DNA from: Fimbriimonadaceae bacterium
GTDB lineage: Bacteria > Armatimonadota > Fimbriimonadia > Fimbriimonadales > Fimbriimonadaceae
Reading direction: 5' to 3'
NCBI GenBank assembly: GCA_019638795.1
Contig: JAHBTB010000001.1
Span: 496,001-560,000 of the forward strand
DNA length: 64,000 nt
Part shown: one piece after another, positions 1 through 43,421 of the stretch
How positions within the stretch are numbered: position 1 is the first letter of the stretch
Layout of the letters: every line of letters begins with the position of its first letter
Notes under the pieces: model-generated
Told to the model about the DNA's origin: nothing
The model's database searches: none
Seen by the model: only the letters and a program-made list of their open reading frames with translations
Program-made: the position numbers and the translations under genes

Positions 1-483
1 CCCTTCTTGCTCGTGACCTACACGGGAGACGGCTGGCAACTGGTGCCACTCCTCCTCGGCCTCTTCAAGAAGGAGTGGCGGCCGACGCTCCTGCCCGCCG
101 TGGCCAGCTACCTGCTTGCCGGGGCGGTGCGGATCGTGATCATGCTCGGCGTCAACCGGGAGCGGCCAAGCAACTTGGCCTTCGCCCACCCCCTGGAGCA
201 GATCACCGGCAACACCAGCTTCCCCAGCGGCCACACGACGACGACTTGGGCGATCGCCTTGGCGGTGGTTCTCTTTTGCTCCGGCCCCCGGGCGAACTGG
301 ATCCGGGCCGCAGTGGTCGCCTGGGCCGTTCTTGTCGCGGTGAGCCGGGTGTACATCGGCGTCCATTATCCGACCGACGTGGTGGGCGGGGCCGCCCTAG
401 GGGCCCTGGCCGCCGGTGTCGTCCGCCTCGTGTGGCCCGCCCCCCGACCAACCACGGAAGGCGACTCCGGCATCAAGGCATAG
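1..483 (+). CDS. PAP2-family phosphatase (5' partial)
   Basis: This is the C-terminal part of a membrane phosphatase of the PAP2/lipid phosphatase family, which removes phosphate from lipid or isoprenoid pyrophosphates at the membrane surface. The three family motifs are visible in order: an Arg-Pro element (VNRERPSN), PSGH with the catalytic-site His, and SRVYIGVHYPTD with the second His and the Asp. Hydrophobic helices separate them. The reading frame is open to base 1, so the true start lies upstream of the window; the in-frame TTG at base 7 is unlikely to be the start. The exact substrate (undecaprenyl pyrophosphate or phosphatidic acid) cannot be told from this fragment. Confidence 0.85.
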   Translation, partial: PFLLVTYTGDGWQLVPLLLGLFKKEWRPTLLPAVASYLLAGAVRIVIMLGVNRERPSNLAFAHPLEQITGNTSFPSGHTTTTWAIALAVVLFCSGPRANWIRAAVVAWAVLVAVSRVYIGVHYPTDVVGGAALGALAAGVVRLVWPAPRPTTEGDSGIKA

Positions 484-828: not shown

Positions 829-3800
829 TCAGGCGCTGGGCTCTTCCGCGGCGGCTGACTGCATGCCCGAGGCCATGCTGCCCCGCTTCGACCAGTAGAT
901 GGCCACGGCCAAGGCGACGGCGGCAATAACGGTCACGGTGATGAGCACGCCTTGCGACCACGGTTGGATGACCTGCGGCGCGATGAGCAACGCGACCAGG
1001 TTCATGACCTTGATGAGCGGGTTCATCGCAGGGCCGGCGGTGTCCTTGAACGGGTCGCCGACCGTGTCGCAGACGACCGCGGCCTTGTGCGCGTCGGTAC
1101 CCTTGCCGCCCCACAGTCCGTCCTCGATCAGCTTCTTGCTGTTGTCCCACATGCCGCCCGAGTTGGCGAGCATGACGGCCAGCAACTGGCCGGAGAGGAT
1201 CGCACCGGCAAGGAAGCCGCCCAAGGCCTGGGCGCCGACGAGGTTGTACTCCACGCCGCCGATGTTGGTCGTCGGCTGGCCGATGGCGAAGCCGAACGCG
1301 ACCAGCACGGGGAAGCCGATAGCCAGGATGCCCGGGCCGATGAGTTCCTTCTGCGCCGCGGCCGTGACGATCGCCACGCACTTGGCGTAGTCGGGCTTGC
1401 TCGTGCCCTCCATGATGCCCTTGTCAGCGTGGAACTGCCGACGGACCTCGTTGATCAACTCGAAGGCCGCCCGGCCCACCGCGTTGATGGAGAACGCGGA
1501 GAACAAGAACGGGGCCGCGCCGCCGATGAGCAGGCCAAGGAAGATCTGCGGGATCTCCAACCTCATGCCGGCCTGGGCCAGCTGGCCTTCTTCGACAAAG
1601 GCATGGAACAACGCGACCGCGGCGACGACCGCCGTCGCGATGGCAAAGCCCTTGGTGAGGGCCTTGGTCGTGTTGCCCGCGGCGTCCAGCAACTGGACGC
1701 GACGCGCACCTTCCGCGTTCTCGTGGCCGGCGCCCGACATCTCGAAGACGCCCTGGGCGTTGTCGCTGATCGGGCCGAAGGTGTCCATCGCGAGGATGAA
1801 CCCGGTGGTGGTCAGCAATCCGAGGCCGACAAGGGCGATGCCGTAGAAGCTCAGGATGTACCCGCCGTACACCGCCGCCGGGAAGACGACGAGCGGGACG
1901 ATCAGTGACAGGACGATGGCGAACAGGCTGAACACCGAGCTCTCTTGGCCGTAGGCAAAGCCAGAGATGATCATCGGGGCCGGGCCCGCGCTCGCCATGT
2001 GGCCGAGTTCGTTGACCGGCTTCTTGTGCAGGCTGACGTAGTAGTCGGTGAGGGCCTCGAAGGCGAACGCCATGAGGACGCCGAAGAGGATGCAGACGAG
2101 GAACGTCCACCAGGGGACGACCTTGCTGTCGACCTTGCCCGTCGTCACCGTGGCCGGCTTGGGCTGGACCGCGTTCGGGTCGGGCTTCTCAAAGAAGCCC
2201 TTCACCTTGTCGACGGAGTCCTTATAGACCTGCAGGTTGGTCCGCAGGTTGAACACCGGGACACCCTTGCCCTGGGTGTCGACGCCAAAGGCGAGGGAAC
2301 CGTCCTTGGCGGCGAAGACCTTGACGGGGAGCGGGGTGCCGACGGGCACGACTTTGTTGCCCGGCGTCATCTTGGTGAAGCTCTCGAACTGGGTGGTCTT
2401 CTCCTTCTCGGTCATCGGCCCGACGAAGGTGTGGATCGTCTGGACGTTGTCGACCGGCTTGGAGTCGGCACCCATGCTCGGGCTGTTTTGGGTCAGTTCG
2501 ACCTCATAGACAAAGAGCGGCTGAGCCTTCAGATACTCGCCCAGCGACTGATAGCTCGGCTTTTCGTTCGGGTTGGCCGGGGGGACGGCGACGGTGTAGG
2601 TGCCCGCGACACCCTTCGTGTCGGAGAGGTCGACCGCCGAGTATTTCGGCTCGTTCTCCGGCACCTTGGGAAGCTGGTCTTCCGACATGCCGAGGATGCT
2701 CGTGACGAGTTGCTCGGTCTGCTCGCGCATGCCGAGGTCTTCGATCGCTTTCTCCTTCAGGATGTCCGTCGCCTTGACGTCCTCGACCTTCTTGCCGTTG
2801 GCCTTGGCATAGTTGGCTCGGGTGTCGCGAATGGTCTTCACCGTGTCGACGACAAGGTGGGCCTGGCTGACGAACTGGTTGGTGTTGACCTTCGAGCCGG
2901 TGCCGCCCATCATCACAAAGGCGAGGGCAAGGGTGCCGACGACGCTGATGACGGCCGAGCTGACAAAACCGCGGCGGATCGACTTCAACGGGTCGTCGTT
3001 GAGGTTGTCGCTGCCTTTGACCATGAAGATGCCGATGATCGAGGCGACGATGCCGATACCACGGGCCATCAGGGCGAAGAGGACGAGTTTCATCCAGGTC
3101 GCTTGGTCGAAGATCACCGCCGTGGCGGCGCCCAAGACGATCGCGGCGACAAGGGTGACCTCGTAGCTCTCGAAAACGTCGGCGGCCATGCCGGCGCAGT
3201 CACCGACGTTGTCACCCACGTTGTCGGCGATGACGGCCGGGTTACGCGGGTCGTCCTCGGGGATGCCCGCCTCGACCTTGCCCACCAAGTCGGCGCCGAC
3301 GTCGGCGGCCTTGGTGTAGATGCCGCCGCCGACGCGCATGAACAGCGCCGCGAGCGAGCCGCCGAAGCCGAACCCGACCAAGAGTTTGGTGGCGTCCGCG
3401 CCGGCAAAGAGGAAGATGAGGGTCGCGCCGAGGAGTCCGAGGCCGACGGTAAGGAGACCGGCGATCGCACCGCTCAAGAACGCCGTCTCAAGGGACGACT
3501 TGTAGCTGGTCAAGGCGGCGTGGGCCGTGCGCATGTTGCCGTTGACCGCCGAGTCCATGCCGACGTATCCCGCGATGTAAGAGGCACCGACGCCAAGGAT
3601 GAAGCAGACGACCATGAGGATGGCCACGGTCTGGCCAAAGGTCGGCTGATACATGAAGAACAGGAGGACCGAAAGTATGAGGATGAAGACACCCATCAAC
3701 CGGGCCTGCTGCCGCAGGTAGGCCAAGGCACCTTCCCGGATCGCCCGGCCGACCTCCTGCATCCTCTCGTCACCGGGCGACTGGTTGAGGATCTTGCCCC

Positions 3801-4002
3801 GGATGTAGAAGGCGGTGGCGATGGCGACGACACCCAAGGCCAACGAGATGTACAGCATCATCTTGTCCTGGGCGGAGAAGACGAGCTTCACGTCGGCTTC
3901 GGACGCACAGGCCATGGCCGGGACAAAGAGCGTCAAAAGGAGGGATAAGAGCCAGGCGAGCGGCTTCCTGCCGGTACGCCCCAATTGGGCCAAGGTCGTC
4001 AT
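829..4002 (-). CDS. hppA: K+-independent H+-pumping membrane pyrophosphatase with a large periplasmic insert
   Basis: Hydrolyses cytoplasmic pyrophosphate and pumps protons out. The substrate-binding motif DVGADLVGKVE, the DNVGDNVGD acidic cluster and the later SDNAQG motif are intact. The cation-selectivity site reads GNTTKALT: Lys and Thr in place of the Ala/Gly of K+-dependent enzymes mark the K+-independent H+ type. It is about 1,057 residues long against roughly 670-800 usual. The excess is a hydrophilic segment of about 260 residues (bases about 2119-2901) between transmembrane helices 8 and 9, on the predicted periplasmic side, plus an N-terminal signal-like segment ending near AMACASEA. 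The start at 4002 is chosen because GGAG lies 9 bases upstream; an in-frame ATG at 4017 has no such site. Confidence 0.95.
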   Translation of the reverse strand: MTTLAQLGRTGRKPLAWLLSLLLTLFVPAMACASEADVKLVFSAQDKMMLYISLALGVVAIATAFYIRGKILNQSPGDERMQEVGRAIREGALAYLRQQARLMGVFILILSVLLFFMYQPTFGQTVAILMVVCFILGVGASYIAGYVGMDSAVNGNMRTAHAALTSYKSSLETAFLSGAIAGLLTVGLGLLGATLIFLFAGADATKLLVGFGFGGSLAALFMRVGGGIYTKAADVGADLVGKVEAGIPEDDPRNPAVIADNVGDNVGDCAGMAADVFESYEVTLVAAIVLGAATAVIFDQATWMKLVLFALMARGIGIVASIIGIFMVKGSDNLNDDPLKSIRRGFVSSAVISVVGTLALAFVMMGGTGSKVNTNQFVSQAHLVVDTVKTIRDTRANYAKANGKKVEDVKATDILKEKAIEDLGMREQTEQLVTSILGMSEDQLPKVPENEPKYSAVDLSDTKGVAGTYTVAVPPANPNEKPSYQSLGEYLKAQPLFVYEVELTQNSPSMGADSKPVDNVQTIHTFVGPMTEKEKTTQFESFTKMTPGNKVVPVGTPLPVKVFAAKDGSLAFGVDTQGKGVPVFNLRTNLQVYKDSVDKVKGFFEKPDPNAVQPKPATVTTGKVDSKVVPWWTFLVCILFGVLMAFAFEALTDYYVSLHKKPVNELGHMASAGPAPMIISGFAYGQESSVFSLFAIVLSLIVPLVVFPAAVYGGYILSFYGIALVGLGLLTTTGFILAMDTFGPISDNAQGVFEMSGAGHENAEGARRVQLLDAAGNTTKALTKGFAIATAVVAAVALFHAFVEEGQLAQAGMRLEIPQIFLGLLIGGAAPFLFSAFSINAVGRAAFELINEVRRQFHADKGIMEGTSKPDYAKCVAIVTAAAQKELIGPGILAIGFPVLVAFGFAIGQPTTNIGGVEYNLVGAQALGGFLAGAILSGQLLAVMLANSGGMWDNSKKLIEDGLWGGKGTDAHKAAVVCDTVGDPFKDTAGPAMNPLIKVMNLVALLIAPQVIQPWSQGVLITVTVIAAVALAVAIYWSKRGSMASGMQSAAAEEPSA

Positions 4003-4062
4003 TGATCGGATCTCCATCGCGGTCGAAAGCTTGTCGGTCCGCCCTCGTCCTTACAACGTGAA

Positions 4063-4080
4063 GGGGCCTGACAAGGCCCC
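4063..4080. terminator. Possible hairpin downstream of the zinc-ribbon gene
   Basis: Perfect 7-bp GC-rich stem with a 4-base loop, between the zinc-ribbon gene and hppA. There is no T-run after it, so termination is uncertain. Confidence 0.35.
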
Positions 4081-4141
4081 CGGGGCGTCCGTTCCGAGGC
4101 ACGATACCCGAACTGAACTTGATCCGACTAGGCGGGCGGCC

Positions 4142-4861
4142 TCAGCCGTTCGACTCTTTGAAAAATGCTTGCGCCCCGTGAGACTCGATCTGCGCCTTGA
4201 GCATCTCGGCCTTCCGTCGGGGGATGCCGCTCAAGAGCGTGACCGGAGCCTCTTCGATGATCTGCTTGACCTGGTTCCGGTTTAGGGCGAGCATGTGTTG
4301 GAGGCAGTTGATCACCTCTTCATGCTTGTTGCCGGGGTCGGCGAGGGTCAGGTCGTACGGCGCGTTGTCGTCACTGGCCGCATACGTCGAGAACGCCTTG
4401 GTCGGACCGTCCTCGTCGTCGGTGGCGATGGGGATGACGCGGTCGCACTCCTCACAAATGAGCCCGGTGCTCTTCTCGCTGTAAAAGTTGAGCGTGTTGC
4501 AGTAGCCGCACCGTACCTGGAACACGCGGAGCATCCGGCCGTCCTGGAGCGGCACCATCCGGTTGCAGTGGACGCAGCGGAAGTCGCTGGTCGGTTGTTC
4601 GACAAGGTGGTTCTTCTTATTACAGAACGGGCACTCGACGGTGATGTCGGGGATCTCGCGCGTCTTGTTGTACTGGACGACGGCGTAGACCACCGCGGCA
4701 AGGCCGGCGACGAGCACCATGATGCCAAAGACCAGCCACAGTTGGAAGTAAGCGAGGATCACGACCGCCGCTCCAATGGCGATGACCCCCGGGATTCCCG
4801 CCATCAGGGCGCGCTGCACGTACTCTTCTTTGATGTCGCTGCTGCGTCGAGACTCCGACAT
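4142..4861 (-). CDS. Membrane zinc-ribbon protein with L7/L12-like C-terminus
   Basis: A 239-residue protein of unknown function. After a charged N-terminus it has two adjacent transmembrane helices (about residues 20-65). A cytoplasmic part follows with four CxxC-type knuckles (CPFC, CVHC, CGYC, CEEC), consistent with two zinc ribbons. The last 65 residues align by eye with the C-terminal domain of ribosomal protein L7/L12: a YDLTL strand, a VI...LALNRNQVKQIIEEAP helix, and a KAEMLKAQIESHGA helix. The start at 4861 is set by AGGAGG 6 bases upstream; an upstream in-frame start at 4978 lacks support and would run over the promoter region. Its partner is unknown. Confidence 0.85.
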   Translation of the reverse strand: MSESRRSSDIKEEYVQRALMAGIPGVIAIGAAVVILAYFQLWLVFGIMVLVAGLAAVVYAVVQYNKTREIPDITVECPFCNKKNHLVEQPTSDFRCVHCNRMVPLQDGRMLRVFQVRCGYCNTLNFYSEKSTGLICEECDRVIPIATDDEDGPTKAFSTYAASDDNAPYDLTLADPGNKHEEVINCLQHMLALNRNQVKQIIEEAPVTLLSGIPRRKAEMLKAQIESHGAQAFFKESNG

Positions 4862-31942: not shown

Positions 31943-32941
31943 CTAGGCGGACGCACCGGCCCGGCGCTTGATCTCGTCGACTTCGGCCAAGCACACCCGC
32001 AGGGACTCGCGCGAAGACGCCGGGGTGACCGTCTCGACCGGCAGTCCCTTGGAAACACGGTCGACGAAGTAAGCCAACTCCGCGTAGTACCCGCCGAGGT
32101 CCGAGATGTTGCCACCGCCAGCGGCGCTCATCTTGGGAAACTCGGGGACGACGGGGTCTTTGCCCGTCTCGTAGACCGTCAGGGGGCCGCCGTCCATGAT
32201 CAGGACAGCCCGCTCAAAGACGGCCCGGAAGGCCATCTTGAACGGAGACCCGGCAGGCAGGTTCCAGCCGCCCTCCAAGTGGGCCACGGTGGACCCAAAC
32301 CGCATGGTGGTGAAGGCGTGGCACGCCCCCGTGCCGTCGACGGTGCCGTAGCTGATCGTCTCGTCCGGCGTGCCCAAGAGATACAGGGCAAAGTCAGTGT
32401 CGTGGATGTGCATGTCCAGGACACCGCCCCCGGACTTGGCTTCGTCGGCCAACCAGTTGTCGCTCGCATAGCTGGGGAAGGCACCATAGCGGGTCAGGTT
32501 GACGCTCAGCAACTTTCCATATCGACCGTCTTCCTTGGCCTGCTTAAGAAAGGCGTATTCGGGCCAAAAACGGATGCAGTGGGCGATCATCAACTGCTTG
32601 CCGCTCGCCAAGGCCGCCGCCGCCATCTCGTCGGCCTCGGCCAAGGTGCGGGCCATGGGTTTTTCGCAGACGACGTGCTTGCCCGCCTGCAGGGCCTCGA
32701 TCGCCGCCGCCGCGTGGCGGTGGGTGGGCAGGCAGACGTCGACGATGTCGAGGTCGTGGTCTGCGATCATCCCTTCGAGCGTGGGGTGGAGCTTCAGTCC
32801 GAAGTCTCCGGCAAAGGCGACGCCCCGCTCCGGCTTGTGGTCGACACAGGCGACGAGCTCGGCGTCGTCCAAGAGCCGATAGACGTTGGCGTGCATACGC
32901 CCCATGAACCCACAACCGACGATTCCGACCTTAAGCGGCAT
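31943..32941 (-). CDS. Gfo/Idh/MocA family oxidoreductase
   Basis: A 332-residue NAD(P)-dependent sugar or inositol dehydrogenase-like protein. The Rossmann nucleotide site GIVGCGFMGRMH is at residues 5-16. The EKP motif (HVVCEKPMART) and the substrate-side GGVLDMHIHDTDFALYLLG (His-x-x-x-Asp) match active members. There is no signal peptide. It lies 10 bases after the caspase gene on the same strand, but a TAGACT box overlapping the caspase stop may give it a separate leaderless transcript. The sugar substrate is unknown; the facing sugar transporter operon makes a catabolic role plausible. Confidence 0.9.
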   Translation of the reverse strand: MPLKVGIVGCGFMGRMHANVYRLLDDAELVACVDHKPERGVAFAGDFGLKLHPTLEGMIADHDLDIVDVCLPTHRHAAAAIEALQAGKHVVCEKPMARTLAEADEMAAAALASGKQLMIAHCIRFWPEYAFLKQAKEDGRYGKLLSVNLTRYGAFPSYASDNWLADEAKSGGGVLDMHIHDTDFALYLLGTPDETISYGTVDGTGACHAFTTMRFGSTVAHLEGGWNLPAGSPFKMAFRAVFERAVLIMDGGPLTVYETGKDPVVPEFPKMSAAGGGNISDLGGYYAELAYFVDRVSKGLPVETVTPASSRESLRVCLAEVDEIKRRAGASA

Positions 32942-32948
32942 GCCGCCG

Positions 32949-32954
32949 AGTCTA
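32949..32954 (-). promoter_or_regulatory. -10 box, leaderless type
   Basis: TAGACT on the minus strand, 7 bases before the oxidoreductase ATG. Its first three bases are the stop codon of the caspase gene. Confidence 0.4.
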
Positions 32955-35942
32955 CCGAGGCACGTCGAATTGGAACGTCCACTGGGCGCATTTCTCGTCC
33001 CAGAGCGCCACACGCACTCCCTCCCGGGCGATGTCGGGGCGAAGCTTGGCCACGGCCGGGGGCATCAGCCGGCCCGAGACCACCGTCTTGCCGTCCCCAC
33101 CCCTGAACGCGCCGAACCGCGTGACGACCCCGGGTAGGGTCACTTTGGGCTGACCCCCGCGTTCAATGGTGATCTCCGCCTTCCCGTCGTCGGCGCAGAC
33201 GACCGTCAGGGTCGCGTCCACCGGCTTGGCCCCGTCGTCAAAGCGGGCCGTACCCTTGAGGACGGTCGTCCCGACGAAGTCTTTCACTGTCGACGGGATG
33301 ATCCAAGGGAGGCCGTCAAACACCGGGCTGCCTTCCCGGGCGTCCTGATACCGGAGGACATATTCGTCGCGCTTCACGCGCTCGGGCACAAGGACGGCCT
33401 GGGCCCGCCAGGCGTTGACCAGGACACGCGAACTCATGTCCAAATCGACCGGGTCGAGCATGGACTCGAATTGAGGAAGGAGTCCTTGTAGAGCCACCGG
33501 GTCAGGCTTGTCGCCTTTCTTGACACCAAAGGCGAGCGCCATCTTCGACAACCAGACCAGGCGTTTTGCGACGGGATCGGTCACTCGTGGCGCGTTCTTC
33601 TCGAAATCCTCAAGGTCCTTGTCGGTGCCTCTCGTGATCCGGTTGAAGTGGGCAAGCGCCCACATCTGATGCCGCATCCGCTGGCTGGAAGGGGCTTTGA
33701 TCTTGTTGAACCACTCGATCCCGTCGGCCCAGTCTCCGGACATCCCACGGGCTATCGCGTAGCGCAGGACGACCGAGTCCTCGTCCACTCCCCATCCGCC
33801 CGCCTTGAGCCCGGCCAGGGCCAAATCTAGGCGGCCGACCGCACAAAGCTTGAGAAACCAAGCCAGTCTCAAGGTCTCTTGACCGGCCGGGTCGGCGACG
33901 AGTTGGCCAAGGCTCCGTTCGGCCAAGAGACTCAATTGTCCGGTCGTGTCGCGAAAGGCCGAGAACGCGTAGGCGTGCCCCGCGCCGATCAGACTGGACC
34001 GCAGTTCCGCGAGGTGGTCGAGAAACGGGAGGAACGCGGCTGCGACGACTAGTCTGGCCGCCGACTTGTCCAAGCGCTTCGTCGCCACCGCGTCGGTGGC
34101 CGCGTCATAGACCGCGCCGTAGAGTGAACTGGTCACGTAGAAATCGTCCGTCCAAAGCTTCTCTAAGGCCGGGGGCCGGACAAGCGGAAGTTCGAACTTC
34201 TCCGTCAAGTTCGCGAGCATCGACGCCATGTGGGCGTAGACCGATGTCGGGTTCGCCGTGACGACCTTGGCGATGTCCTCCTTGAGAAGGTAAGCGTCAC
34301 CCCGGAGCAAGGCGACTGCCTTCAGGTAGTTCGGGCCAAAATCCGAGTACTTCAGGGCCAGCCGGGCGACGGTCTTGCGTCGCTCAAGGGGCGCTTCGCG
34401 GAAGCCGAAGGTGAGGTTGAGAATCCACCGGTCCGGCGTGTCGATCAAGATGCCGCGTGTGGCGACCGCAAGCATGCCGTCGTAGTCTCGAAGGTTCTTC
34501 AGCAGCTCGAACTCGAGGTCGAGGAGGAAACGCTCGGGCGGTTCCTTGCCTTCGACGGCTCGGGCTTCCTTCAAAAGGGCAGACGCGGTCTTGTCGTCCT
34601 TCTCGAATTGGGCCAAGCGGGCGGCAAAGTACAGTCCGGCCCGAGAGCGGGCGCCAAAGTGCTTGACTAACTCAGAAGCGACCTCCCTTACTGCGGCTGG
34701 GGCGGCCACGTCGATGTTCGCCCATCGTTGCCAATACAGGTCGGCGGCGGCAAAGTCCCGATCGGCCTCCCAGATGCGCTTACTCGCCTGCCGCCGCACC
34801 TCGGGAGTGACAGACGGATCGTTCCACCAGATCAGAGCACTGTCCCGGACATAACTGTCTGGGCTTGACCGGACTAGCTCGGCACAAAGGCTTTGCGCCT
34901 CTCGCTCACGCCCAAGAAACCGGTACGCCCCCAGCAGGCAACCACGGTCGGCCGGCGTCAGCACACCCAAGCCTTCCAGAGAGCGGGCGACGTCGACGGC
35001 CTTGTCGAAGTGCCTCCCGTCATAGTACGCCCACATCAGGGCGCGAAGCATCTTCGTGTACGGCTCCTTTCCCCGGTCTTGAGCGGTCTTGATGACGCCG
35101 CGCAAAAGCTCTTCGCCCTCGCCGACTGGGGGAGGCACCAGGGCCAGCATGACGTCCTGGTTGGGATCGGCCCACATGTCGGGCACCTGTTTGGCGTCTC
35201 CGAACTGTCTCTCGGTCGTGGACGAAACTTGTTCGACAACCTTGGCGGCGACCGCCGACGCCCAGAGCGCACCGAACTTCTTGTCTCGGACGCTTTCGTC
35301 CTTGAGCACCCGGGCGATCGCGGCGGTGAAGTAGCCATGGCCGGTGCGAGGGTTTTCGTAGGAACGCTGGCCGGGCGCACAGCCCAGGAGGACGGCGATG
35401 TTGGCGCGGCGCCCCAATTCGCGCAGTTCGCGCCCAAAGGGGTTTTTGTCGCCTTCCCGGCAGGCGTCGGCGACGATCAGGACGTTGTGCATCCCGGCGT
35501 CGACGAACCGCTTGACCACCTCCTTGACCGAGACGCCGACCTGGGCGACGTTCTTGGGGTCGGCGTCGGTCGGGCACAAGAAGTCACCCTCGGGGGTGCC
35601 GATACCGTGGCCGGAAAAATAGAAGACAAAGAGATGGCCGGGGTCGAACCGCCGGTCGTGGACCATCTTGTCCAAGGCGTCCACGATCCCCTGGCGGGTG
35701 AGCTTGGCCGAACCGGCGTCGGTCATCGTCCGGACGGTCTTCGGCTCGAACCCTAGGTCGTTCTCCAGGCTGGCCGCGAACATTTGGGCGTCGGACGCGG
35801 CGTACTTGAGGGGGGCCAACGCGGTGTATTTGGTCGCGCCCAGCACAAGCGCCCAACTCCGGGCGGGAGCGAAGGCGCCGGGCTCCTGCCCCCTGCCGAC
35901 GACGGCAAGGAGCAGGAGCAAGGGGGCGGCGAACCGGCGCAT
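32952..35942 (-). CDS. Secreted caspase-like (C14) peptidase with long helical repeat region
   Basis: A 996-residue protein starting with a signal peptide (MRRFAAPLLLLLAVVGRGQE). The caspase/metacaspase p20 domain spans residues 27-250. The catalytic His is in FYFSGHGIG (His112) and the Cys in VLIVADACREG (Cys161), both kept. About 600 helical, TPR-like residues follow (WYQRWANID-type pairs, KAVDVARSLEGLG), then about 120 beta-rich residues. It should act outside the cytoplasm as an Arg/Lys- or Asp-specific cysteine protease. The ATG overlaps the stop of the M48 protease gene by 1 base (TGATG), so the two are co-translated. Target and trigger are unknown. Confidence 0.9.
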   Translation of the reverse strand: MRRFAAPLLLLLAVVGRGQEPGAFAPARSWALVLGATKYTALAPLKYAASDAQMFAASLENDLGFEPKTVRTMTDAGSAKLTRQGIVDALDKMVHDRRFDPGHLFVFYFSGHGIGTPEGDFLCPTDADPKNVAQVGVSVKEVVKRFVDAGMHNVLIVADACREGDKNPFGRELRELGRRANIAVLLGCAPGQRSYENPRTGHGYFTAAIARVLKDESVRDKKFGALWASAVAAKVVEQVSSTTERQFGDAKQVPDMWADPNQDVMLALVPPPVGEGEELLRGVIKTAQDRGKEPYTKMLRALMWAYYDGRHFDKAVDVARSLEGLGVLTPADRGCLLGAYRFLGREREAQSLCAELVRSSPDSYVRDSALIWWNDPSVTPEVRRQASKRIWEADRDFAAADLYWQRWANIDVAAPAAVREVASELVKHFGARSRAGLYFAARLAQFEKDDKTASALLKEARAVEGKEPPERFLLDLEFELLKNLRDYDGMLAVATRGILIDTPDRWILNLTFGFREAPLERRKTVARLALKYSDFGPNYLKAVALLRGDAYLLKEDIAKVVTANPTSVYAHMASMLANLTEKFELPLVRPPALEKLWTDDFYVTSSLYGAVYDAATDAVATKRLDKSAARLVVAAAFLPFLDHLAELRSSLIGAGHAYAFSAFRDTTGQLSLLAERSLGQLVADPAGQETLRLAWFLKLCAVGRLDLALAGLKAGGWGVDEDSVVLRYAIARGMSGDWADGIEWFNKIKAPSSQRMRHQMWALAHFNRITRGTDKDLEDFEKNAPRVTDPVAKRLVWLSKMALAFGVKKGDKPDPVALQGLLPQFESMLDPVDLDMSSRVLVNAWRAQAVLVPERVKRDEYVLRYQDAREGSPVFDGLPWIIPSTVKDFVGTTVLKGTARFDDGAKPVDATLTVVCADDGKAEITIERGGQPKVTLPGVVTRFGAFRGGDGKTVVSGRLMPPAVAKLRPDIAREGVRVALWDEKCAQWTFQFDVPR

Positions 35943-37750
35943 CAGCCTGCGACCGGGGTCACGGTGATTCCGACGATCTTGTCATCCTTGACGCAGACCC
36001 CGAAGTTCAGTTCGGGGAAATAGAGCCAGGTCTCCAGCTGGTTGCCCCGCACAAGCGAGACCTCCTCACCGGAATCGGACGGCACGATCGCGTCCAGTTG
36101 CTTCAGCGAGTCGCCGACACTGATGACCAGCTTTCGGTCGTCGCTGAGGTCGGCGGGCTTGAGGACCAGGACGCCGTCCTTGGCATAGGTGGTCAGGCGC
36201 AGGGCCTGGCCTTCGCTGGCCATGATGGCAAAGTCCCCGTCCAACCAGCGCATTTCCTTGAGGTCCTTGAAGTTCGGGTCGAACAGTTGCTCGACCGGTG
36301 ACGAGCCCAAGGCCTTGGTGAAGTTCTCGACGGGGTCGAAAAGGGAGAACTGCTTGCTCCCGCTCCACAGAGCGACGGCGCGGCAGAGGGCCCCCGGAGC
36401 CGACTCCAACTTGGTGGCCACCAATTTGTTGGCTTCGCAGAAAGCCATGTAGTTCTTGCTGACCTTGGCGTACTTGGGGTTGTCGCTGGAATTCACCCGC
36501 AACCACTTGGCCATGACGGTGGCGGCGATCGCGGCGTCGGTCTTGTCAGCGATGCTGGGGACCTGCTCACCCAAGTTCAATCCGATATAGGTGTTGACAA
36601 GGATCTTGTTGTCCTTGAACGTCGCGCGCTCGGCTTTGACCATGGTGTTGATGGCATCGTTCAAGCTACCGGAACGCTGCTGGCCGACGGCGATGTTGTT
36701 GGCGATCCGCAACTTGTCGGGCCCGGCCATGGTCTTGCCCATCAAGTCGCTGAGGATCTTGACGCCCTGTTGCAGGGCTTCCGGCTTGGCGTCGGGGTCA
36801 AGGACAAGCAGGACGCCCTTGATCTCTTGCACCCTCGGATCGTTGGGAAGCTTAGCTTCGGCCGCGGCGACTCGCTGGGTGGCGGCAAGGTAGTTGCGCC
36901 GGTCCAGCTCGGTGATCGTCGCGCCCCGGCCCGCCACGGAGGCGGACGTGAGCATCGGCCCGAAGTCAGGACGGAACCACGTCGCCTTGATCGTGTCGCT
37001 CAGGTTGTCGTAGTAACCCATTGTCGAAGCAAGGGCGGCGTTGGAGTAGGCCTCCAGGAGCTTCGGTTCCTTGGCGATCGCCCGGTCGAACATCCTGGTG
37101 GCGATCGCGAAGCTCCGTGCCTCCATGAAGGCAAGTCCGGCGTCGAAGTCCATCAGGGCCCGCGACACGGCCGGGTTGTCCTCGATGGCCGCCATCCGGG
37201 CGCGGGAGCTGGGGTGGTCGCCCTGAAGGTTCTCCAGCCAGCCACCCTTGTCGCGCAGTTTGTCGTCCAATGCCTTCAGCATGTCGACCATGTCTTGCTT
37301 GGAGTATCCGGCCCGCTGGAGCAACCAGGCACCGGTGGCGTCGGCCTCCAGCTCTTGGTTGCGGGTGTAGAAAACGTTCAGGTCGTCCGGATGGGCGAAA
37401 GTCGAGTTGTGCCCTTTGCTCAGGTGCGAGATCTCGTGGGCCACGACCGCACGGATCAGCCGTTCGTCGCTGACGACGTCAAGGAGACCGGCGAAGACCA
37501 CCATCTTGGTCTGGGGCTTGTCGCCTTCTTTCGCCGGTTTCTCCAGCGCAGCGTAGGCGTTGGGCTCCTTGTTTTCCTTGTCGTAGACGCACTTGATCGG
37601 ATAGGCGTAGTTCGGGTTCTTGACCGAATAAGCCTCAAGCTCTCGGACCATCTTTTCCAGCTTTTCCTGGCTGAACTCGGCGGCAGACGCAAAAGCGGCC
37701 AACAGGGCCATCAACGGAAGTGTCGTGTTGCGGATGAATTTCGATTTCAT
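35942..37750 (-). CDS. Secreted M48-family metallopeptidase with TPR-like region
   Basis: A 602-residue exported zinc peptidase. A signal peptide (about 23 residues, ending FASAAE) is followed by the M48 domain with HEISH (residues 105-109) and the third ligand in NQELEADATGAW. Helical repeats of TPR type run from about residue 180 to 470, and a small beta-rich domain ends the protein. The layout recalls the BepA/YfgC group that guards outer-membrane proteins, although the C-terminal domain here is extra. The start at 37750 leads directly into the signal peptide. It is the first gene of a pair with the caspase and divergent from the esterase operon. Confidence 0.9.
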   Translation of the reverse strand: MKSKFIRNTTLPLMALLAAFASAAEFSQEKLEKMVRELEAYSVKNPNYAYPIKCVYDKENKEPNAYAALEKPAKEGDKPQTKMVVFAGLLDVVSDERLIRAVVAHEISHLSKGHNSTFAHPDDLNVFYTRNQELEADATGAWLLQRAGYSKQDMVDMLKALDDKLRDKGGWLENLQGDHPSSRARMAAIEDNPAVSRALMDFDAGLAFMEARSFAIATRMFDRAIAKEPKLLEAYSNAALASTMGYYDNLSDTIKATWFRPDFGPMLTSASVAGRGATITELDRRNYLAATQRVAAAEAKLPNDPRVQEIKGVLLVLDPDAKPEALQQGVKILSDLMGKTMAGPDKLRIANNIAVGQQRSGSLNDAINTMVKAERATFKDNKILVNTYIGLNLGEQVPSIADKTDAAIAATVMAKWLRVNSSDNPKYAKVSKNYMAFCEANKLVATKLESAPGALCRAVALWSGSKQFSLFDPVENFTKALGSSPVEQLFDPNFKDLKEMRWLDGDFAIMASEGQALRLTTYAKDGVLVLKPADLSDDRKLVISVGDSLKQLDAIVPSDSGEEVSLVRGNQLETWLYFPELNFGVCVKDDKIVGITVTPVAG

Positions 37751-37817
37751 AGGAATGACTACCTTGTCAGCCAACCATGACGGGTGTCAGCAAAATAGAT
37801 TTCGTCGCTGACCAGGA

Positions 37818-37837: not shown

Positions 37838-37919
37838 ACTATGGTCGGCGTTTCAACCTACGAAGTACAGACGCAGACCCACCTGGCATGGATTCCTGCG
37901 GGGGCAAGCCGTCGTGGAC

Positions 37920-37925
37920 TATGCT
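37920..37925 (+). promoter_or_regulatory. -10 box, leaderless type
   Basis: TATGCT, 6 bases before the ATG at 37932. It supports that start over the GTG at 37914. Confidence 0.45.
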
Positions 37926-37931
37926 CAGACC

Positions 37932-40337
37932 ATGCTCCGTCCCCTCGGTGTCGGCGTCGCCGTCCTCCTCTTGTCGTCCCTCGGCTTGGCCGGCGAGACA
38001 GTCCTGACCGAGGCCGTCTCGACGCGGGTCCGAGGCGGGGCCCGGTCTCTTGTCCGGGTGGACCCGGTCGAGGCGCAGTTTGTCGCCGGGACAGGCGCGG
38101 CCCAAGGCGATTTCCAAGGATGGACTCCGGTCTCGGCAGGTAAGGACGGCTGGTTCACCGGCCCAGAGGCCCGAGGAGGCTATCTGGCGTTCACCGTCAA
38201 GTCAAGCCGAGACCGTGCGGTCTTCATCGAGGCTCCTGGCTCAGGAACTGTCTATGTCGACGGCCGACCGCGGGCTGGCGACCCCTACGGGTACGGCTAC
38301 ATGTCCCTCCCTGCCCTGCTCAAGGCCGGTGAATCCCACATCGTGGTGCAGGCGGGGCGGGGCCGACTCCAAGTGAAGATTGTCGACGTGGCGAAGCCCG
38401 TCTCGCTCGACATGCGCGACGCGACGTTGCCCGACGTCCTTCCAGGGGAGAAAGCAAAACAGCCCGCGTCGATCGTCGTGCGCAACGCGACGGGTAAGCC
38501 GGCCAAAGTCGTTTTGGACGGGGGCGCCGGTCGCCAGGCACCGACGGCCGTCCCGGCGTGGTCGTTCCGCAAGGTCGCGGTGGACCTGCCCGCCGCCAAG
38601 GACGGCAAGGTCACGGTTAAGCTCCTCGTCGACGGCAAGTCCGTCGACGAGGCCGCCGTCAGCCTTGCGGTGCGGAAGCCGGGCGAAGCGTACAAGGTGA
38701 CCTTTGTCAGCGACATCGACGGGAGCGTGCAGTACTACGGCGTCCGACCTCCGCTCAAGGAGGGCCCGGGTCAAGCGCTGTTCCTCAGCCTGCATGGCGC
38801 AAGCGTCGAGGCCTTGGGCCAGGCACAGGCCTACGGCCCCCATTCGTGGGGGTATGTCATCTGCCCGACCAACCGTCGGCCCTACGGCTTCGACTGGGAA
38901 GACGTCGGCCGCCTGGACGCCCTCGAGGTCTTGCGACACGCCAAGGCCCGGTTCAAGACCGACCCACGCATGACGTACCTGACCGGACACTCGATGGGCG
39001 GCCACGGCACCTGGCAAGTCGGGGGGCACTATCCCGGGCTCTTCGCCGCCATCGCGCCGAGCGCAGGTTGGATCAGCTTCAACACCTACGCGGGAGGATA
39101 TCGCTATGACATGGCCGACCCCGTGCAGGCGATGCTCGCCCGGGCCGGAAACACGAGCGACACGACCCTCCTGAAGCGCAACTATTGGCAAGAAGGGGTG
39201 TATGTCCTGCACGGCGACGCCGACGACAACGTCCCCGTGACCGAAGCCCGTGCCATGGCCAAGCTCCTGGAAGGACATCCTGACTTCACCTTGCACGAAG
39301 TCCCGGGAGTGAGCCACTGGTACGACACCACTCCCGACGCCGGTGCCGACTGCGTCGACTGGCCCGGGATCTTCGACATGTTCGCCCACCACCGGTTGCC
39401 CGCCACCGGCGACCTACGCGACATCGACTTCACCACGGTCTCGACCGGCGTCTCGGCGACGTGCCACTGGGTGACCGTGCTCCAACAGGAGCACGCCCTC
39501 ATGCCCAGCCACGTCGTGCTCCACGTCGACCTGGCGGCCAAGCGGATCACCGGCAGTGTCGACAACGTCGCCCGCTTTGCCGTCGACACCTCGGTGTGGG
39601 GCGGTGGCGAGTGGACGTTGGAGCTCAAGGGCCAAAAGCCCGTGAAGTTCGGCCCGTCTGACCATTTGGTCACCAAGCCCTTACCGCCGCGCACATTTCC
39701 TGCCGGAGCGCCGCAGGCCGACGAGCACTGGGCCGCGGTGCCGGCTTCGTCGGCCCAAGGAGAAAAGTCGCCCGCCCGAAGCGGTGGGTTCAAGTCGGTG
39801 TTCAACCACAAGGTGGTTTTTGTCTACGGCACCCACGGTACGGCGTCTGACAATGAGTGGGCCCTCGCGACGGCGACCTTTGACGCCGAACAGTTCGCCT
39901 ACCGTGGCAACGGTTCCGTCCTCGTCGTTTCCGACGACGAGTTCACCAAGTCGCCCCTTCATGGACGCAACGTCTTGCTCTTCGGACGGCCGGGAGCCAA
40001 CACCGCCTGGTCGAGTTTGGTGGACGCCAAGTCCTTGTCCGTCGCAGCGGGGCGGGTGACCGTCGGCACCCAAGAAGTCTCTGGCGACGACTTGGCCGTC
40101 GTCGGCGTCCTGCCCCGACTTGGTGAGTCGGAGACCGTGGTCGGCTTTGTGTGCGGGTCAGGCATGGCGGGGCAACGCCTATGCGACCGGATGCCTTTCT
40201 TCACCAGCGGTGCGGCGTTCCCCGACCTTGTGGTCGTCAAAGCTTCCATGCTTAAGGACGGCCCGGCGGGTGTCCTGGGGGGTGGGTTCTTCAGCAACCG
40301 GTGGGACGTCGACGGAGGTGACTGGGTTTGGCGATGA
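37932..40337 (+). CDS. Secreted prolyl-oligopeptidase-like serine hydrolase
   Basis: About 801 residues with a signal peptide (MLRPLGVGVAVLLLSSLGLAGE). The first 240 residues form beta-rich domains. The alpha/beta-hydrolase core follows: nucleophile GHSMGGHG, acid in LHGDADDNVP, and His in VPGVSHWYD. About 270 residues of beta-type sequence end the protein. The family holds peptidases and carbohydrate esterases such as feruloyl and acetyl xylan esterases, so substrate choice is open. The neighbouring glycosidases favour an esterase acting on plant polysaccharide; this is inference. It heads a four-gene operon with galT, whose ATG overlaps its stop. Confidence 0.85.
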   Translation: MLRPLGVGVAVLLLSSLGLAGETVLTEAVSTRVRGGARSLVRVDPVEAQFVAGTGAAQGDFQGWTPVSAGKDGWFTGPEARGGYLAFTVKSSRDRAVFIEAPGSGTVYVDGRPRAGDPYGYGYMSLPALLKAGESHIVVQAGRGRLQVKIVDVAKPVSLDMRDATLPDVLPGEKAKQPASIVVRNATGKPAKVVLDGGAGRQAPTAVPAWSFRKVAVDLPAAKDGKVTVKLLVDGKSVDEAAVSLAVRKPGEAYKVTFVSDIDGSVQYYGVRPPLKEGPGQALFLSLHGASVEALGQAQAYGPHSWGYVICPTNRRPYGFDWEDVGRLDALEVLRHAKARFKTDPRMTYLTGHSMGGHGTWQVGGHYPGLFAAIAPSAGWISFNTYAGGYRYDMADPVQAMLARAGNTSDTTLLKRNYWQEGVYVLHGDADDNVPVTEARAMAKLLEGHPDFTLHEVPGVSHWYDTTPDAGADCVDWPGIFDMFAHHRLPATGDLRDIDFTTVSTGVSATCHWVTVLQQEHALMPSHVVLHVDLAAKRITGSVDNVARFAVDTSVWGGGEWTLELKGQKPVKFGPSDHLVTKPLPPRTFPAGAPQADEHWAAVPASSAQGEKSPARSGGFKSVFNHKVVFVYGTHGTASDNEWALATATFDAEQFAYRGNGSVLVVSDDEFTKSPLHGRNVLLFGRPGANTAWSSLVDAKSLSVAAGRVTVGTQEVSGDDLAVVGVLPRLGESETVVGFVCGSGMAGQRLCDRMPFFTSGAAFPDLVVVKASMLKDGPAGVLGGGFFSNRWDVDGGDWVWR

Positions 40338-41350: not shown

Positions 41351-42276
41351 AGCGCCCGTGGGAAGCGGAGATCGTGGTCACTCCAGCGATCGTGAGGAGA
41401 GTGGTCCAGAGTCAGCTCCCCGACTTGGCGGGCCAAGGGATCGAGTTCATCGGGAGCGGTTGGGACAACGACGCCTATCGGCTTGGCGACATCGTCATCA
41501 GGTTCCCGCGGCGGCACGTCGCCGTCGACATGGTGCGCTTTGAGGCGGCCGTCCTCGACCGTTTGCCGCGAGACCTCCTCCTTCAGGTTCCCCGCCTCCA
41601 CCTTGTCGGCAAGCCTAGCGATGCATACCCCTATCCTTTCCTGGCTTACCAAATGGTGAAGGGGACGCCCGTCTGCGACACTCCTGGTGTGCATTGGGAC
41701 CCTGCCGACGCTAGCGCACTTGGCCAGTTCCTGCGGATGGTCCATCAAGTCCCGGTCTCGGTCGGAAAGGCTTTCAGAGGTGACACGCTGCGCAAAGCCG
41801 ACGTCGCCTTTCGACTCGGCAAGTGCCAGGAGGTGCTTGCCGAACTACCTGAGGACGCCCTTGGCGTACCCAAACCGGACATTCTGAGGGCTGCGGTCGC
41901 CCTCTCACAGACGACGGCGGCTCAAGTGTCGGCCCTTGTCCACGGCGACCTCTATTCCCGTCACGTGCTGGTGGACGGGAGCCGCCTCTCTGGTGTCATC
42001 GACTGGGGGGACTCCCACGTCGGCGACCCGGCCCTCGACCTCTCGATCGCCTACACATTGCTCCCGTCGGAGTGCGAAGGGCCGTTCTTCGACGCATACG
42101 GGGGCGTTGACCAGGGCACGCGGGAGCGGGCGATGTTCCGCGCCGTCTTCTATTGCGTCGTGCTGGCTGATTTCGGTGTCGGCAACGACGACCCGCCGAT
42201 TCTTGAGACTGCCCGGTTCACCGCCCGCAGGATTTTGGAGACAATCGAGTCCTCTCCGGGTAAACCCGGCCCATGA
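41347..42276 (+). CDS. APH-family phosphotransferase
   Basis: A 309-residue aminoglycoside-phosphotransferase-fold kinase. The catalytic loop reads HGDLYSRHVLVD, with His where the usual metal-binding Asn sits, a variant seen in part of the family. The second metal-binding motif is IDWGDSHVGDPALDL. A nucleotide-binding Lys or Arg is expected near DIVIRFPR. Members phosphorylate antibiotics, sugars, choline or homoserine, so drug resistance should not be assumed. Placed between galT and a secreted peptidase with 4-base overlaps on both sides, it may be a small-molecule kinase. Confidence 0.85.
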   Translation: MKRPWEAEIVVTPAIVRRVVQSQLPDLAGQGIEFIGSGWDNDAYRLGDIVIRFPRRHVAVDMVRFEAAVLDRLPRDLLLQVPRLHLVGKPSDAYPYPFLAYQMVKGTPVCDTPGVHWDPADASALGQFLRMVHQVPVSVGKAFRGDTLRKADVAFRLGKCQEVLAELPEDALGVPKPDILRAAVALSQTTAAQVSALVHGDLYSRHVLVDGSRLSGVIDWGDSHVGDPALDLSIAYTLLPSECEGPFFDAYGGVDQGTRERAMFRAVFYCVVLADFGVGNDDPPILETARFTARRILETIESSPGKPGP

Positions 42277-43421
42277 CCATCGCCCTGCTCCTGGCCACCC
42301 AAGCGTCTGCCGGCAGTCTCGACCATTTGGTCGACCGTGCCCGGCTCAAATCTACCGTGGAACGTCTTGCCAGTTGGCACGACCGCAACACGAACAATCC
42401 AACCCTGACGGAAGCGGCCAAATGGCTGGAAAGTGAGTTCAAGAAGGTCCCCGGAGTCCAGGTCGAACTGATGAGGTATCCGGTCAAGAAGGGCCGCCGT
42501 GTCCGTGAGGACAAGGAAGTCGTCGAGGTCGTCGCGGTGTTGCCTGGCTCGGACGACCGCCGCATCCTGGTCGGCGGACACTTTGACACGATCAACATGG
42601 TGCCGCGCGACTTGGAATCGTCACTCCGCTCACGAGCACCAGGGGCGAACGACGACGGCAGCGGCACAGCGCTGACCCTTGAACTGGCCCGGGTCATGGC
42701 GACAAGAAAGTGGAAGCACACCCTGGTCTTCGTCGCCTTCAGCGGCGAGGAGCAGGGGCTGCTCGGTTCGACCGCTTTGGCCAAACGGGCGAAGAGCGAG
42801 GGTTGGAAGCTCGACGCGGTCTTCAACAACGACATGGTCGGCAACAGCAGCAACAATCAGGGGAGGCACGAGACCAAGCTCGTCCGTGTCTTCAGCGAAC
42901 TGTCTGACCAACACCAAAGTCGCGAGTTGGCCCGGTTCGTGGCCTACGCCGGCGGTTCGAAAGACTTTGGAGCCATGCTCGTCTTCCGGCACGACCGGTT
43001 CGGCCGCGGGGGCGACCACACGCCGTTCAACAACGAGGGTTTCACCGCCGTGCGCGTCACCGACGTCGTGGAGGAGTTCAGCCGCCAGCACACGCCTGAC
43101 GACCTTCCAGAGAATGTCGATTTCGACTACCTCAGCAACGTCACCAAGCTCAACTTGAGGTCGATGAGCCTTCTGGCCGACGCGGGTGAGCAACCGACCG
43201 CAGTGCGTGTCGACCGCCGTCAAGGCCACAGCACTCACATCACCTGGCGGTCGACTCCGGGGACGAGCTACACGGTGTACTGGCGCGCGACGACATCACC
43301 GGTATGGCAGGCGCACAAGGACGTCGGCGCCGCTTCGGAGTTCACCATCGCCACGGTCAACAAGGACGACAACATCTTTGGGGTCGGGGCGACGGGCGGC
43401 ATTCCGGTCGAGGCCCGGTGA
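42273..43421 (+). CDS. Secreted M28-family aminopeptidase
   Basis: A 382-residue zinc peptidase with a short signal peptide (MTIALLLATQASAG). The two-zinc site is intact: GGHFDT, GANDDGSGTA, SGEEQGLLGS (Glu-Glu pair), NDMVGN and the late RGGDHTPFN. A C-terminal fibronectin III-like domain of about 75 residues (HITWRSTPGTSYTVYWRA) is attached, as in other secreted M28 enzymes. It probably trims peptides outside the cell. It is the last gene of the esterase-galT-kinase operon and converges with the GGDEF/EAL gene. Confidence 0.92.
   Translation: MTIALLLATQASAGSLDHLVDRARLKSTVERLASWHDRNTNNPTLTEAAKWLESEFKKVPGVQVELMRYPVKKGRRVREDKEVVEVVAVLPGSDDRRILVGGHFDTINMVPRDLESSLRSRAPGANDDGSGTALTLELARVMATRKWKHTLVFVAFSGEEQGLLGSTALAKRAKSEGWKLDAVFNNDMVGNSSNNQGRHETKLVRVFSELSDQHQSRELARFVAYAGGSKDFGAMLVFRHDRFGRGGDHTPFNNEGFTAVRVTDVVEEFSRQHTPDDLPENVDFDYLSNVTKLNLRSMSLLADAGEQPTAVRVDRRQGHSTHITWRSTPGTSYTVYWRATTSPVWQAHKDVGAASEFTIATVNKDDNIFGVGATGGIPVEAR

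Follow-up and report, generated by a model that had tools for sequence, protein, structure and literature searches.

Two exported-looking proteases, an M48 metallopeptidase and a caspase (family C14) encoded by overlapping genes in a Fimbriimonadaceae bacterium, are inherited jointly within one order of the Armatimonadota and occur together again in a class outside the phylum set that was examined. We consider it probable, at about 0.65, that the two serve a single process outside the cytoplasm as dedicated partners. Their catalytic residues are intact, and their folds, their export and an acidic S1 pocket in the caspase are supported by prediction. Each half is of a known kind and the pairing is new; our searches of the open-licence literature turned up no account of the pair, and one may exist elsewhere.

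An overlapping gene pair

The pair lies in a stretch of 64,000 nucleotides (the window) on contig C1 of a genome of 2.7 Mb. The gene structure in the preliminary description, an M48 metallopeptidase and a 996-residue caspase whose genes are joined by a TGATG, was confirmed from the sequence. The longest M48 frame begins at a TTG at 37774. The oxidoreductase gene that comes after the caspase gene is possibly a third cistron of the local transcription unit and lies outside the module as we count it. A promoter scan around the pair found no site, and a terminator scan there yielded no more than it did in shuffles.

Table 1. Genes of the pair and their junction in the window, and segments of the two proteins.
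Feature	Location	Strand	Details
M48 metallopeptidase gene	37750-35942	minus	ATG 37750, stop 35944-35942, 602 aa
Caspase (C14) gene	35942-32952	minus	ATG 35942, 996 aa
TGATG junction	35940-35944	minus	M48 stop and caspase start, one shared base (sequence)
GFO/IDH/MocA oxidoreductase gene	31943-32941	minus	start ~10 bases past caspase stop
M48 protein: signal peptide	residues about 1-24		predicted, hydrophobicity rule
M48 protein: M48 domain	residues about 28-191		HEISH 105-109, E133, plug H179/R185
M48 protein: TPR helices	residues 194-440		AlphaFold model
M48 protein: C-terminal beta region	residues 460-602		AlphaFold model
Caspase: signal peptide	residues about 1-19		predicted, hydrophobicity rule
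Caspase: catalytic domain	residues 28-270		H112, C161; putative S1-pocket acids D51, D159, E196
Caspase: TPR-like solenoid	residues 276-877		AlphaFold model
Caspase: C-terminal beta domain	residues 891-992		AlphaFold model

The M48 protein resembles BepA in architecture

The M48 protein scores 64.9 bits against Pfam PF01435 (cut-off 20.3), a family matched by all 26 of its relatives (E<=0.01), and neither it nor the caspase matches any second Pfam family at E<=1. Residues H105, E106, H109, E133, H179 and R185 are invariant in 26/26 aligned full-length sequences. The AlphaFold model (20 sequences, pLDDT 88, pTM 0.86) places the protease first, followed by helices up to residue 440 and then the beta-rich end. 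The top Foldseek match of this model was E. coli BepA (E 2e-6). VIA-align superimposed the model on BepA (6ait/6sar) with Z 15.3 over 286 aligned residues in the range 27..437 and an rmsd of 18.4, a value so large that the domains must be placed differently in the two proteins. The remaining VIA-align matches at Z 12-15 are TPR proteins of no relation, so similarity in the TPR part does not by itself argue for kinship.

Like BepA (YfgC), a periplasmic M48 protease of E. coli that acts on BamA/LptD, the window protein combines a signal peptide with an HExxH M48 domain, a glutamate as third ligand and, after these, TPR helices. It also has the His and Arg of the HPx4R motif, which, according to the available part of PMC7950410, belongs to the active-site plug through which BepA regulates itself. 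The window protein itself carries all three motif residues (H179, P180 and R185); among the 26 family members the His and the Arg are each present in 26/26, whereas the Pro is found in only 10/26. The family departs from BepA in further respects: the window protein scores 32.7 bits on the equivalog NF052400, for which the cut-off is 570, it has an added C-terminal beta region of ~140 residues that falls outside the BepA match, and its family is co-inherited with a caspase. From its BepA-like architecture an envelope role for the M48 protein is plausible, but its equivalog score falls far short of the BepA cut-off.

Two candidate readings of the M48 protein were not borne out. A proposal of two BamE-like repeats in the C-terminal part was unsupported by hhalign, which gave probabilities of 4.9, 0.2 and 0.2 when the C-terminal halves were compared with each other and with the C-terminal domain of the caspase. 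Nor is this the sole M48 protein of its genome, which has seven M48 matches. Separately, the M48 gene of G029 (L103:6722-8305) has an in-frame TAA in its C-terminal part and is either a degrading gene or a sequence error; the caspase frame of that genome is full-length.

The caspase has an intact dyad and a predicted basic specificity

The caspase scores 78.7 bits against Pfam PF00656 (cut-off 21.4). H112, C161, D159 and E196 are present in 34/34 aligned caspases, and position 51 is D in 31 rows and E in 3. That the catalytic residues of both enzymes look intact, as initially reported, is thus borne out, with the caspase dyad H112/C161 in every caspase row and H105-E106-H109 plus E133 in every M48 row. 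The caspase alignment includes one protein, L063:11198-14887, that the signal-peptide and distance work excludes. This 1229-aa caspase-like protein is encoded just upstream of the M48 gene in G006, a genome with several further long caspases, and is probably a WD40-caspase outside the family; one of the 34 members matches WD40, and the match was assigned to this protein by length and divergence.

The caspase was modelled from 11 sequences (pLDDT 82, pTM 0.68). Its catalytic domain shares the fold of the paracaspase MALT1 and plant metacaspase 4 (Z 22-23, ~215 aligned; Z 23.0, rmsd 2.4 and 216 aligned for metacaspase 4, Z 22.6 for MALT1), two proteins that, unlike the window caspase, are eukaryotic and carry other accessory domains; both are intracellular. 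Residues 28..271 of the model align with metacaspase 4 and with procaspases over their entire caspase domains, which suggests that a p10-like part, the part that orthocaspases lack, may be present. No obvious activation (zymogen) loop is visible in the sequence of the short stretch between the two domain halves. The helical repeats described behind both catalytic domains are found as helices in both models (Table 1), and TPR families match several relatives.

The dyad and the putative acidic S1 pocket align with MALT1 in a weak phmmer alignment (E 0.018), in which D159 pairs with the Asp two before the MALT1 Cys and E196 stands opposite a later MALT1 Glu. Both MALT1 residues are, we assume, S1-pocket residues, and the caspase, an enzyme of the metacaspase/paracaspase type, is therefore predicted to prefer Arg/Lys and to cut after these residues. 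The part of PMC8283722 available to us supports basic P1 specificity for bacterial caspases.

Against the EACC1-associated caspases (NF047832), with which it shares a bacterial-type caspase domain, the window protein scores 58.1 bits, below the cut-off of 140. When the two proteins were scanned with the anti-phage defence models of PADLOC, the caspase matched PDLC02987 (4e-15) over residues 29-206 only and the M48 protein had no match. In the available part of PMC3501461, a survey of prokaryotic metacaspases, TPR repeats and N-terminal hydrophobic segments (possible signal peptides) are common, and 23 operons are reported with other proteolysis domains; that part names no M48 partner or co-inherited pair. 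The window caspase is like the metacaspases and orthocaspases covered there in its C14 domain with a His/Cys dyad and its TPR repeats, and unlike them, as far as that part of the survey goes, in that predicted export, a length of ~1000 aa and a C-terminal beta domain are family-wide.

The window genome has a second exported-looking caspase homologue of 466 aa (L093:3312-4712; C1 about 131311-132711, outside the window), with 25.3 bits against PF00656 and no visible SGHG or DAC motif, which gives it the look of a pseudo-caspase. In many genomes of the order, frames of ~440-515 aa also give weak caspase matches.

Both families are predicted to be exported

Signal peptides were called by a home-made hydrophobicity rule applied to any candidate start within the first 60 codons, a crude rule that is generous in the choice of start. 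By it, 31/33 caspases and 27/27 M48 proteins have a signal peptide, as do 111/351 other ORFs of at least 250 aa in the same loci. The two caspases that fail have a caspase domain beginning ~220-250 codons into the frame, past the 60 codons examined. The signal peptides first ascribed to both window proteins are thus predicted for 58/60 family members. A lipobox-like match occurs in two relatives per family and in neither window protein, and soluble export of both proteins is likely, in a bacterial group that presumably has an outer membrane.

The two families are present together

Full-length profiles (E<=1e-40) were run against 291 genomes of the phylum, which is Armatimonadota to judge by record titles. 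The M48 family was found in 29 and the caspase family in 30, with 29 common to both and no genome carrying the M48 protein without the caspase. The caspase profile had matched 32 genomes; two, G203 (11-292) and G214 (25-286), match in the catalytic domain only and were left out of the count. The sole caspase-only genome, G011, is 74% complete and in about 420 contigs. All 30 caspase genomes fall within one order (113 genomes), where Fisher's test of joint presence gives 4e-26 with kinship ignored, and one genus (code g6, 20 genomes) is split between 10 genomes with both and 10 with neither.

In a class outside the phylum set, the two families occur in the same 3/154 genomes. One of them is G291 (locus L129, deposited as uncultured bacterium), the single positive among 392 genomes in an M48 search of a sample of its phylum. 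The preliminary description had asked about conservation beyond this genome, and the pair is indeed conserved: 29 genomes of the phylum carry it, as do 3 genomes from another class. Because it recurs, it is not a chance juxtaposition. Overall both proteins are found in 32/33 of the examined genomes with either, where the G062 caspase frame, which has no catalytic domain, and genes truncated at contig ends (G006, G011, G033, G074, G075) count as present.

The matching contigs are deposited as Armatimonadetes, Fimbriimonadaceae, Fimbriimonas, Chthonomonadaceae, Chthonomonas and, in some cases, merely as 'bacterium'. One M48 locus (L120, JADZEW010000031.1) is titled Methanoregulaceae archaeon and corresponds to G064 of this bacterial family; the archaeal title is probably wrong. 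In G062 (L106 about 1769-2542 and 2340-4607) the caspase-family frame without a catalytic domain abuts, as read by eye, an apparent truncated epimerase on the opposite strand, pointing to either a rearrangement or a contig that is chimeric, and we rejected this locus as evidence for a catalytically dead caspase. A viral or plasmid origin of the pair was likewise rejected: no viral contig encodes a relative, and none of the 34 matching plasmid records covers 80% of the protein; among the matches listed, only the caspase domain region is matched.

Joint inheritance exceeds shared descent

The rpoB tree has 58 rows, comprising 57/113 genomes of the order, chosen as the pair-bearing genomes and part of the others, together with G291; G011 and G034, for which no rpoB match was obtained, are absent from it. 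The two traits are coded identically on this tree and agree in all 58 rows, G011, the sole disagreement, being absent. The tree requires 15 changes of the pair, 11 of which are forced by well-supported branches, and all 11 independent contrasts are joint gains or losses (sign test p 0.00098).

Protein distances were compared in 23 genomes in which the caspase, the M48 protein and rpoB were all available as aligned rows. The linked copy was used where a genome has several caspases, and G020 and G032 were represented by one copy and rerun with the alternatives. Caspase and M48 distances correlate with r 0.77, and with a partial r of 0.74 given rpoB (p 0.0001). The partial r is 0.86 in the 12 linked genomes and 0.53-0.69 (p 0.004-0.043) in the 11 others, where it falls to 0.19-0.40 (p 0.016-0.16) once G037 is removed. 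Because the correlation is weak among non-neighbours, part of the distance signal reflects co-transfer of linked genes. Linkage alone does not explain joint presence, since in 13/32 genomes the genes are not neighbours; presence and absence are strong evidence even where the genes are apart, and the rate coupling there is weak.

Gene arrangement varies

Among the 32 genomes with both genes, 5 have them co-directional with the M48 gene first (G000, G052, G013, G091, G023), 11 tail-to-tail (G009, G010, G018, G028, G029, G063, G069, G070, G006, G291, G344; the status of G006 is inferred across a contig border) and 13 apart, with 3 left unassigned (G062, G075, G342). Two of the 13, G027 and G035, carry both genes on a single contig, at a distance of at least hundreds of kilobases; the remaining 11 (G019, G020, G025, G032, G033, G037, G064, G065, G071, G074, G078) have them on different contigs, with one gene at a contig end in G033 and G074. 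The co-directional genes overlap in G000, its sibling G052 and G013, and are separated by 3 bases in G091 and ~900 bases in G023. Co-translation, as originally proposed, therefore holds for the window, where the genes overlap, and not in general, most genomes having the genes tail-to-tail or apart; as a defining feature of the pair it was rejected, with overlap in three genomes only and near-overlap in G091. The tail-to-tail order occurs in both bacterial groups, which suggests that it is an old arrangement and that the window operon is derived.

Within the order, five of the 30 genomes with a caspase (G006, G020, G023, G032, G063) have at least two long caspases beside one M48 protein, and only G062 has two M48 proteins, so that an M48 protein serving caspases fits better than the reverse.

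ORF clustering around the pair found no third family generally accompanying it. The largest neighbour clusters, of 19 and 18 genomes, were taken, by their coordinates, for antisense frames of the pair itself; after these, one cluster reaches 10 genomes and the rest are smaller. An S9-type (prolyl-oligopeptidase-like) hydrolase gene at 37914-40337 (+) is divergent from the M48 gene in the window, and an M28 peptidase is encoded at 42273-43421. In G032, whose M48 gene is not adjacent to the caspase, a 42% identical relative of the hydrolase is encoded two genes away from the caspase, and G025 has part of such a relative close to its caspase, making 4 genomes in all (window, G052, G025, G032).

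Discussion

We propose that the two enzymes form a two-protease module that would act beyond the cytoplasm, the periplasm being the likeliest site, with the M48 protein and the caspase exported separately and serving the same process. We infer that they interact physically; the TPR parts may bind envelope clients or each other. One shared process outside the cytoplasm is considerably likelier than the further step in which the M48 protein would be devoted to regulating the caspase as part of envelope surveillance, acting from M48 to caspase. We put that step forward tentatively, at less than even odds. By it, the M48 protein would control the caspase or caspases by processing or clearing, caspase cleavage would be confined to a particular envelope condition, and regulation might be achieved by construction, through the plug in the M48 protein and perhaps through the solenoid in the caspase. 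More specifically still, and in our judgement rather unlikely, the pair might be a previously undescribed extracytoplasmic relay present in two distant bacterial groups: the BepA-like M48 protein, regulated by its plug, would use its TPR and C-terminal beta parts to sense a fault in the envelope and would then switch on the exported caspase.

Both proteases might instead be exported to act in parallel, sharing a substrate or catalysing consecutive steps of one catabolic or envelope-turnover route, with no mutual regulation. Such an arrangement would fit with joint inheritance in the face of an unconserved gene order, with a caspase that has no obvious zymogen loop and with the other hydrolases near the pair, the S9-type and M28 enzymes. 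Joint presence in 32/33 genomes is, however, tighter than expected of interchangeable digestive enzymes, and each family carries elaborate TPR and beta parts; we regard this account as doubtful. The pair could also serve as a secreted weapon in fratricide, with the caspase released or surface-exposed to attack neighbour cells and matured by the M48 protein. A patchy distribution of this kind, in which the two change jointly at least 11 times on the tree, is what accessory conflict genes typically show, and extracellular metacaspases acting on neighbours are proposed in the available part of PMC3501461. Against this stand the lack of any observed immunity gene or third conserved neighbour around the pair, of relatives in viral contigs, and of plasmid matches beyond the caspase domain region among the matches listed, and we think a weapon improbable.

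That the genes merely travelled together and were kept by chance, with no shared function, would agree with the distance correlation being strongest in linked genomes (partial r 0.86, n=12) and weaker in others. It is nevertheless the account to which we give the least credence, as very improbable: 13/32 genomes keep both genes without adjacency, joint presence and joint absence recur over the tree, and the absence of both genes from different places would be left unexplained. Partnership in one process outside the cytoplasm thus stays our favoured reading, and it preserves part of what was read from the window at the outset: both proteins look exported, look active from their sequences and are probably partners. 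Co-translation has not proved general, and the proteolytic cascade or envelope quality-control system first suggested would be a further, putative step.

To our knowledge, bacterial caspases are mostly discussed as cytoplasmic enzymes of cell death or defence, and exported ones are without a known pathway. A strictly co-inherited partner is a concrete biochemical lead for an exported caspase. If the M48 protein controlled a caspase, the role of BepA-like M48 proteases would reach beyond outer-membrane assembly to governing another protease, and the relay, if true, would be a bacterial counterpart of the initiator-executioner cascade, placed in the envelope.
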